From an uncultured Bacilli bacterium (GTDB lineage: Bacteria > Bacillota_I > Bacilli_A > RF39 > UBA660), in assembly GCA_944332205.1 (NCBI GenBank), contig CALVJN010000012.1, forward strand, positions 1 to 43,924: 43,924 nt of DNA, given 5' to 3'. The notes beneath the pieces were generated by a model. It did not search any database, was not told where the DNA came from, and saw only the letters and a list, made by a program, of their open reading frames with translations. Numbering within the stretch: the first letter of the stretch is position 1; each line of letters opens with the position of its first letter. Below, in pieces: positions 1 through 4,655 of the stretch. The translations under genes and the position numbers were made by a program.

Positions 1-954
1 TTTGGAACAACCAATACAAGTGATAGTGTAGAAGGAGAATGTACAACACCTAAAGTATCAGGAGAAAGTGGAAACTGTGAAGTAGGAGATTATATGACAC
101 ATCCAGCTTTCTTAGCCTTTAATACAACAGGGATATGGGTAGGAAAGTTTGAAACAGGATATGATGGTGCGGCAAGTAAAAGTGGAGCTAACAAGAATAC
201 AACCGAAGTGAATAAAGTAATAGTAAAACCAAATGTCTACAGTTGGAGAAATATACAAGTAGCAAATGCTTTTACAGTAAGTTATAATTACAAACGAAAA
301 TTAGAATCTCATATGATGAAGAATACAGAATGGGGAGCAGTAGCGTATTTATCACATTCTATATACGGAATAAATTATGAAATAAGGAAAAATAATAATT
401 CTAATTATTTAACTGGATATGCAGCAATAACAGAAAATGGAAGTGATAGTACAACAGATGTTGCAATGTGGAATACAACAACTGGATATTTAGCAAGTAC
501 AACAGGGAATATAACAGGAATATATGATATGTCAGGAGGAGCTGTTGAATATGTAATGGGAGTAATGAAAGATGCAAATGGTAATTTAATGTCAGGGCAG
601 AGTTCTACTTATAATTCAGGTTTTAATGGGACATTAAGCAGTGGAGGAAGTGTTACTAATGGATTAGATTTTCCAAATAGTAAGTATTATGATGTGTATA
701 ATTATAATAAGCTCAGTTATAATTCTTCTAGAAGTAGAAGAATATTAGGAGATGCAACAGGAGAGATGGGACCATTTCAAAGTTTGCAGTCATCATGGTA
801 TAATGATACTGCTTCGTTTGTTTACTCTAGCAACCCTTGGTTCGGCCGTGGGGGCAACTATAGCCTCGGTTCTGGAGCTGGTGCGTTCTCTTTCAACTAC
901 AGCAACGGGCATGCTAGCAGCAGCGTTTCTTTCCGTTTAGTCTTGGGTATATAG
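1..954 (+). CDS. Surface protein, FGE/C-type-lectin-like fold, probable DGR target (5' end outside window)
   Basis: The frame is open from base 1, so the start lies upstream; 317 residues are visible. Seen: a segment reading IWVGKFETGYDG, then NTEWGAVAYLSHS, then GIYDMSGGAVEYV, which resembles the YDMxGNVxEW core of formylglycine-generating-enzyme-like C-type lectin folds. The C-terminus (NPWFGRGGNYSLGSGAGAF, ending SFRLVLGI) resembles DGR variable proteins, which use this fold to display hypervariable residues. The body uses A-ending codons (ACA, GGA, ATA, GTA), unlike T-ending clpC next door. The last ~130 bases are abruptly GC-rich with many NNC codons. By analogy with related surface proteins the missing N-terminus may be a prepilin-type signal, but this cannot be seen. 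Ligand unknown. No reverse transcriptase or template repeat was found in the window. Confidence 0.75.
   Translation, partial: FGTTNTSDSVEGECTTPKVSGESGNCEVGDYMTHPAFLAFNTTGIWVGKFETGYDGAASKSGANKNTTEVNKVIVKPNVYSWRNIQVANAFTVSYNYKRKLESHMMKNTEWGAVAYLSHSIYGINYEIRKNNNSNYLTGYAAITENGSDSTTDVAMWNTTTGYLASTTGNITGIYDMSGGAVEYVMGVMKDANGNLMSGQSSTYNSGFNGTLSSGGSVTNGLDFPNSKYYDVYNYNKLSYNSSRSRRILGDATGEMGPFQSLQSSWYNDTASFVYSSNPWFGRGGNYSLGSGAGAFSFNYSNGHASSSVSFRLVLGI
820..951 (+). other. Putative DGR variable region
   Basis: The 3' end of the first gene changes composition sharply from AT-rich, A3-biased codons to a GC-rich stretch rich in AGC, AAC, TTC, GGC, CTC, GCT and CAT codons. This is expected when AAC/AAT codons of a template repeat are copied with adenine mutagenesis into a target. 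The encoded pattern RGG-4 residues-G-2 residues-AG-1 residue-F, ending SFRLVL, matches the usual layout of DGR lectin-fold variable regions. The template was not found here, so boundaries are approximate. Confidence 0.6.
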
Positions 955-976
955 TTTTTCCACTTGTGGAAAAACT
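953..976 (+). repeat. Perfect 11-bp inverted repeat just after the variable region
   Basis: Arms AGTTTTTCCAC (953-963) and GTGGAAAAACT (966-976) are perfectly complementary around a 2-base loop and begin inside the stop codon. No U-tract follows, so this is not a usual terminator. A hairpin or cruciform just 3' of the variable region is a known recognition element for DGR retrohoming in well-studied phage DGRs. That role is inferred. Confidence 0.65.
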
Positions 977-1055
977 TAACTCTGATCTTTGTGGTTTAAT
1001 AAATAATCGAAGCATATAGATAGACAGATTTAATAGTAAAAGAGTATTTTAATTA

Positions 1056-1090
1056 TGCTGATTGCTCCCTTTTTGGCAATCGGCATTTTT
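1056..1090 (+). terminator. Rho-independent terminator of the DGR-target-like gene
   Basis: Arms TGCTGATTGC and GCAATCGGCA form a 10-bp stem with one G-U pair, followed by five T and a T-rich stretch. The right half recurs at 39344-39364 without its left arm. The rest of 977-1202 holds no gene; a TATAAT at 1137-1142 is a possible clpC -10 without a clear -35. Confidence 0.8.
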
Positions 1091-3544: not shown

Positions 3545-4655
3545 ATGGAACTTTATGAATTAAGAAAAAATGTTGATGATAGTTATATGCGTTTAAAAGA
3601 TTTGTGGAGGTTACTTTGATGTAGACAATAAGAAATCTATTATTAAAGATTTAGAGTTAGAAATGTCATTACCTAATTTTTGGGATGATTCTAAAAAAAG
3701 TTCTGAAGTTATTGAAAAATTAAATTCTTTGAAATCTGTTGTTAATAATATTGAAGATTTGTTGTTTAAAGTTAGTGATATTAAAGATAATCTTAATTCT
3801 CTAGATGATTATGATAATGATTTTTTTAAATTATTAGAGGATGAATATTTAGAAGTATCTTTATCTTTGGAAAAGTTAGAGCTTTTACTTCTTTTAGATG
3901 GAGAGTTTGATAAAAATAGTTGTATTTTAGAAGTTCATTCTGGGGCAGGTGGTACTGAAGCATGTGATTGGGCTATGATGCTTTATAGAATGTATACTAG
4001 ATGGTGTGATAAAAATGGTTATAAGTATACAGTTTTAGATTATCAAGAAGGTGAAGAAGTAGGAATTAAAAGTGTGTCTATTTTAGTTAAAGGATTATAT
4101 GCGTATGGTTATTTAAAATGTGAAAAAGGTATTCACAGGTTAGTTAGACTTTCACCTTTTGATGCTAATAATAAACGTCATACTTCGTTTGCATCTGTTC
4201 TTGTTACACCTGAGTTTAATGATGATGTTACCGTCGAAATTAATGATAAAGATTTAAAGATCGATGTTTATAGATCTAGTGGTTGTGGTGGACAAGGAGT
4301 AAATACAACAGATTCTGCTGTTAGAATAACACATTTGCCTACTAAAATAGTTGTTACTTGTCAAAATGAACGTAGCCAAATTCAAAATAAAGAGCAAGCT
4401 TTAAAAATGTTAAGAAATAAACTTAAGTTATTAGAAATAGAAAGAAAAAATAATGAATTGAAAGAAATAAAAGGTGAACAAAAGAATATTGAATTTGGAT
4501 CACAAATAAGAAGTTATGTTATGCATCCGTATTCAATGGTTAAAGATCATAGAACTTTATATGAAACAAGCAATGTTTTAAAAGTATTAGATGGAGATAT
4601 TAATGAATTTATTGAGTGTAAGCTTAAGGAGGATAAAAATGAAAAAAAAGAGTAG
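3545..4655 (+). CDS. prfB: Peptide chain release factor 2, programmed +1 frameshift (join 3545..3616, 3618..4655)
   Basis: RF2 releases nascent chains at UGA and UAA. The zero frame starts at ATG 3545 behind GGAGG and ends after 24 codons at TGA 3617-3619. A +1 shift at CTT-TGA continues into the long frame (next codon GAT at 3618), giving about 369 residues, the normal RF2 length. The catalytic GGQ is present in SGCGGQGVNTTDS, and the stop-recognition tripeptide SPF is in RLVRLSPFDANN, which separates RF2 from RF1. The 3' end overlaps the next gene by 17 bases, so the two are probably co-transcribed. Expression is autoregulated: low RF2 lets the ribosome pause at UGA and shift. Confidence 0.95.
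3605..3620 (+). promoter_or_regulatory. prfB programmed +1 frameshift site
   Basis: TGGAGGTTACTTTGATG contains an SD-like GGAGG (3606-3610), then TTA, then the slippery CTT followed by in-frame TGA. This matches the conserved RF2 element with internal SD, CUU and UGA. The Leu tRNA slips from CTT to TTT and translation resumes at GAT. Confidence 0.93.

Follow-up and report, generated by a model that had tools for sequence, protein, structure and literature searches.

A potentially hairpin-forming inverted repeat behind the variable region of a pilin-like DGR target in an uncultured Bacilli bacterium

Why does a long inverted repeat begin inside the stop codon of a gene that carries a variable region? 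The locus lies at the start of the window analyzed here, a stretch of 43,924 nucleotides that constitutes contig C12; the draft genome to which it belongs comprises 1.25 Mb in 34 contigs. The original prediction described a perfect 24-bp palindrome at the end of a DGR-like target and proposed that it is a DNA or RNA element for retrohoming. Our analysis indicates that the repeat most likely marks the gene as a site where a mutation-making retroelement writes variants. Such hairpin marks are already known; in this bacterial group they seem to take an AT-rich form with unusual loops. The features of the locus are collected in Table 1.

Table 1. Features at the left end of the window
Feature	Position	Strand	Basis or remark
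Target gene, coding for the last 317 aa of a pilin-like DGR target	1..954	+	Open frame; 5' end lost at contig start
Variable region (VR), aligned to the 123-nt TR core	813..935	+	Adenine-biased differences from TR
3' end of the TR/VR common tract, likely the IMH side	926..935	+	TTTCTTTCCG in TR and five targets
Inverted repeat, AGTTTTTCCACTTGTGGAAAAACT	953..976	+	Stem of 10 bp, loop CTTG at 963-966; starts within stop codon
Separate terminator-like stem, then T-run	1055..1086	+	Fold search; in 8/8 targets

The gene at 1-954 is a DGR target. Compared with the TR core, its VR is changed at 12 of 31 adenines and at 1 of 92 other bases. The single RT found in the genome (RVT_1, 57.9 bits, cut-off 29.6) is encoded on another contig than the window, C3, and contains IGNYTSQ as well as YMDD; the motif IGxxxSQ is a mark of DGR RTs. 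Its best named matches come from MAGs of uncultured Bacilli, Erysipelotrichaceae, and Clostridia. The adjoining accessory protein matches Pfam bAvd with 64.5 bits (cut-off 40) and NCBIfam DivGenRetAVD with 68.7 bits, below the cut-off of 80. The TR sits next to the RT, between a target on C3 and the genes for RT, bAvd, and a MutS domain I protein. The latter, a protein of 127 aa (E 1.4e-8), is encoded between TR and Avd (L001:2650-3033, minus strand, contig C3). The presence of RT, bAvd, and TR in the genome, together with the bias towards adenines, confirms the predicted DGR-like nature of the target.

The N-methylation motif of type IV pilins (N_methyl, PF07963) stands at the start of a full-length paralog on contig C6 (L019:613-2448); the DGR therefore seems to diversify pilin-like proteins. 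The C-terminal part matches the FGE-sulfatase family with 14.6 bits, below the cut-off of 23.3, and gave a profile match (E 5.7e-4) to 5vf4, which PMC6328139 describes as the variable protein of a Thermus DGR, having a C-lectin fold of the FGE type. The predicted structure of the target protein had a pLDDT of 26.

Examination of the repeat revealed two perfect 11-bp arms flanking a TT centre. Because this TT is not self-complementary, the sequence differs from its own reverse complement at two positions. The claim of a perfect palindrome thus holds for the arms and fails at the centre, and the 2 nt between the arms make the sequence a perfect inverted repeat instead. As predicted, it starts within the stop codon, at the second base of TAG (952-954). 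Three G-C pairs are present in the stem proper, or four if the C and G of the CTTG loop are counted as paired. At the window's GC content of 28.6%, stems of this kind are rare by chance: the window holds four perfect stems of 10 bp or more around a centre of 2-6 nt, compared with a mean of 0.85 in 40 simulated first-order sequences, and the only one with at least four G-C pairs is the repeat at 953-976, where 0.025 would be expected in the same 40 simulations. As single-stranded DNA, the segment 950-980 folds with -8.2 kcal/mol (z -4.19), and as RNA with -10.2 kcal/mol (z -3.60). The corresponding TR side reaches just -1.5 kcal/mol.

No T-run follows directly 3' of the repeat, in agreement with the original prediction, which had also placed a true terminator 80 bp further on. 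A T-tailed stem does begin 79 bp past the repeat. According to the fold search it is kept in all eight targets found in this genome, including those without the hairpin, and changes between the copies fall on both of its sides. A stricter terminator scan of positions 700-1300 listed no terminator, and Rfam identified only an L10 leader in the window. With a separate T-tailed stem present in 8/8 targets, the repeat was rejected as a terminator itself. Directly 3' of the T-tailed stem lies a perfect all-AT inverted repeat (1089-1122) with arms of 16-17 bp. Elsewhere in the window, CTTTGATG at about 3600-3625 precedes a long frame and may be the site of a programmed frameshift of the kind known from release factor 2 genes.

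Eight targets with a common variable region were found in the genome and are named here by their contigs: C12 (the window), C23, C3, C20b, C31, C6, C20a, and C9. The tract TTTCTTTCCG is present in the TR and in C12, C3, C20b, C6, and C31, and occurs in variant forms in C23, C20a, and C9. An identical repeat follows the stop codon in C12, C23, and C20b (3/8), and a copy with one change in C3 (1/8). It is weakened in C31 and C6, to -5.0 and -4.3 kcal/mol compared with -8.2 kcal/mol as DNA, and after the stop codons of C20a and C9 (2/8) no hairpin was found. The original prediction had suggested searching for the repeat behind other genes with SFRLVL-like ends and had regarded its absence from paralogs with the same variable region as evidence against a role in retrohoming. 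The search thus bore out the expectation in part: the repeat is missing from two of the eight targets, and since it is exact, near-exact, or weakened in the other six, it is not absent from the paralogs as a whole. A genome-wide forward search allowing up to three mismatches returned seven matches; the four best (0-1 mismatch) are all located 3' of targets, while the other three carry three mismatches each and lie on C2, C7, and C29, contigs in which no target was found.

The targets with the full hairpin tend to resemble the TR more closely. Counted over the core, non-A changes number 0, 1, 2, and 10 in the four with the identical or once-changed repeat, versus 6, 9, 16, and 24 in the remaining four, which is a non-significant trend only; the three VRs with the fewest such changes (0, 1, 2) all keep an intact repeat. 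The entire 3' flank is conserved across the target copies, so the repeat in the paralogs partly reflects shared descent and the copies are not independent. C23, C20a, and C9 have some non-A differences from the TR in common (L030, C3:11250-11389, minus strand, with flank); this pattern in the sequences hints at exchange between targets or at an older TR. With hairpins that range from intact through weakened to absent, all under one TR, the eight paralogs offer a ready natural series for testing what reads the hairpin.

To extend the comparison to other genomes, we used RT relatives at E ≤1e-40, which are present in 61 of the family's 386 genomes. Scanning the neighbourhood of the RT for adenine-biased repeats, without gaps, yielded 25 non-redundant same-strand cassettes with an RT identity of at least about 49%. 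A hairpin starting between -12 and +15 from the VR end (p<0.05) was detected in 16 of these 25, compared with 2/25 at TR ends and 5/25 in stretches 100 nt downstream; 7 to 9 of the 25 close cassettes have no clear hairpin. In a further DGR branch (L110, L138, L094, L096, L098, L103, L109, L112, and L113), the RT is encoded on one strand and VR and TR lie on the other, and the VR end mostly lacks a hairpin; among nine cassettes with this opposite orientation of the VR, one has it.

A wider run, in which 107 of 194 loci were usable (non-redundant RT and a VR/TR pair), overlaps with the 25-cassette set and is not independent of it. Among its close same-strand cassettes, 18/24 have a hairpin, a count that includes L084 (added by hand, p 0.15) and L087, which may be a terminator. 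The loops of the 18 close hairpins, with those of L030 and L052 relabelled by hand as CTTG and GNA, are TTTA (5), CTTG (3), GNNA (3), GNA (2), and others (5); the hairpins start at a median of +3.5 from the VR end and have a median stem GC of 0.31. Among the distant DGRs, 49 of 74 (55 of the 74 being viral contigs) have a hairpin, with loops GNNA (28), CNC (6), GNNNA (4), GNA (3), and others (8), a median start of +23, and a stem GC of 0.86. TTTA or CTTG loops thus occur in 8/18 close versus 0/49 distant hairpins (Fisher p 6.7e-6, ignoring relatedness). The method was checked on the viral set, where the GRNA-type loops known from publications reappear: of 45 hairpins at p<0.05, 10 have GATA, 3 GACA, 2 GGTA, 1 GGAA, and 1 GAAA. 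The DGR hairpins of six viral contigs on neighbouring RT branches (L188, L195, L198, L224, L229, and L230) form another class, with loops of CACC, CCCT, CACT, CAC, or CTCC.

In the RT tree, the RT serving the window belongs to a group of 34 rows with a support of 100 that contains all eight TTTA/CTTG rows. These rows are scattered inside the group, requiring eight changes, as in shuffles, and their stems differ; for this reason the TTTA/CTTG loops look recurrent and not inherited once. On the sequence comparisons made here, this DGR clade of Bacilli and Clostridia MAGs seems to be characterized by an AT-rich VR-end hairpin whose stem sequence varies and whose loop is often TTTA or CTTG. TTTA, CTTG, and GNNA loops may all adopt the same kind of compact DNA fold, one that turns over two bases. 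We found no report of a TTTA or CTTG loop in the literature on DGR hairpins, in a search made by subject and not by loop letters, with subscription journals and bioRxiv mostly outside its coverage.

Whether a hairpin goes along with recent rewriting was evaluated in six genomes, and hairpin state as a predictor of VR freshness gave no significant comparison (p 0.14 in G000, 0.25 in G117, 0.36 in G170, 0.64 in G335, 0.32 in G341, and 0.32 in G368). The TRs for G117, G335, G341, and G368 were our choice, and G146, in which no TR was placed, was left out; the G341 value is unreliable because its cassette VR was matched against a TR-like stretch different from the TR identified for that cassette. 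The VRs covered were 35 of at least 49 matches in G170 and part of the matches in the other genomes. In G170, the RT of which is 56% identical, 9 of the 35 VRs have at most one non-A mismatch to the TR, and a nearby hairpin reaches p<0.05 in only two of these nine near-perfect VRs. Together with the null result on freshness, these VRs make it unlikely that the hairpin is strictly required throughout the family. A 64-aa variable-region profile returned at least 76, 65, 49, and 47 matches in G015, G383, G170, and G031, respectively, genomes of about 1.2-1.7 Mb; judged by this profile, they contain large families of DGR-target-like genes, not all of which need be live targets; close examination covered G170.

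Taken together, it is very probable that the repeat at 953-976 is a cis-acting hairpin or cruciform of a DGR target. When the DNA is supercoiled or briefly single-stranded, the repeat would extrude as a stem-loop just 3' of the VR, where it could aid the uptake of adenine-mutated, TR-derived cDNA at the 3' end of the VR. The C3-encoded RT and Avd would make this cDNA, and the pilin-like gene would thereby be rewritten in trans; the loop itself may be recognized. By analogy with BPP-1, DNA is favoured over RNA as the acting form of the element.

Alternatively, the repeat might act as an RNA hairpin where the mRNA ends, stabilizing the transcript or terminating it weakly, and play no role in retrohoming. 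The location at the stop codon and the folding energy as RNA (-10.2 kcal/mol) would suit this reading, but it is highly improbable given the missing T-run, the separate T-tailed stem in 8/8 targets even where the hairpin is gone, and the association of the hairpin in relatives with VR ends (16/25) and not TR ends (2/25). Beyond the targets, the forward search of the genome returned just three matches, with three mismatches each. The near-perfect dyad symmetry could likewise suggest an operator-like palindrome bound by a dimeric protein; we regard this as extremely improbable, since relatives keep the position while the stem sequences differ, and the forward pattern has no other copy with 0-2 mismatches in the genome.

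The hairpin could also be a passenger, either a former homing element or one copied with the gene and its 3' flank, that is now without effect on diversification. The conserved 3' flank, the near-perfect G170 VRs largely without a hairpin, and the loss of the hairpin at 2/8 targets here are in line with such a history. However, hairpins with differing stems in 18/24 cassettes of the clade (one added by hand and one possibly a terminator) would not be kept by drift, and the three VRs with the fewest non-A core changes all have an intact repeat, which leaves a passenger improbable. A retrohoming element, the preferred reading, might be part of a wider system: the Bacilli-type DGR clade could have its own target code, in which AT-rich stems of free sequence and a few recurring loops (TTTA, CTTG, and some GNNA/GNA), read by the RT-Avd complex or a host factor, replace the GC-rich form with a GRNA loop. 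We advance this idea tentatively and consider it somewhat doubtful. If it were true, one cassette could aim at several dispersed pilin-like targets, and genes losing the mark would drop out of diversification. Loop classes, if recognized by cognate machinery, would represent natural, exchangeable DGR target marks, through which one could ask directly what reads the hairpin.

Among known systems, DUSEL4 nanoarchaeal DGRs (PMC4372165) similarly have a lineage-own loop form (there GRA triloops), and their hairpin is likewise linked to the target gene; unlike here, the hosts are archaea, the loops are triloops, and the hairpin lies within the target gene. The best characterized counterpart comes from BPP-1, where, in the study by Guo et al. 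2011 (PMC3240598), a 24-bp sequence with 8-bp inverted repeats directly 3' of the mtd VR is needed for efficient homing. This equivalent, along with the repeat at other targets of our genome, supports the retrohoming role originally predicted. The BPP-1 hairpin forms in supercoiled DNA; its pairing and loop sequence matter while its stem sequence is variable, and a CTTT loop and an AT-richer stem reduced function (PMC3240598), which speaks against a homing role of the present repeat with its CTTG loop and AT-rich stem. In an E. coli reconstitution, deletion of the stem-loop impaired BPP-1 homing severely but incompletely (PMC12875486), so that a stem-loop downstream of the IMH is helpful and not strictly needed, which fits G170 VRs renewed without a hairpin; that work is an experimental system. 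The present repeat shares with BPP-1 the position directly 3' of the VR near the stop codon, the absence at the TR, and pairing that is kept while the stem sequence differs between elements (PMC3240598). It differs in having a 10-bp AT-rich stem with a CTTG loop instead of an 8-bp GC-rich stem with a GAAA loop, and it shows neither the 4-nt GRNA loop consensus of the phage set nor the GC-rich stem, of 7-10 bp, of the BPP-1 kind of hairpin; the function in BPP-1 is shown by experiment (PMC3240598), whereas the repeat at 953-976 is known from its sequence. Because position, pairing, and near-absence at the TR agree, the repeat at 953-976 most likely works like the BPP-1 hairpin, in a divergent form.
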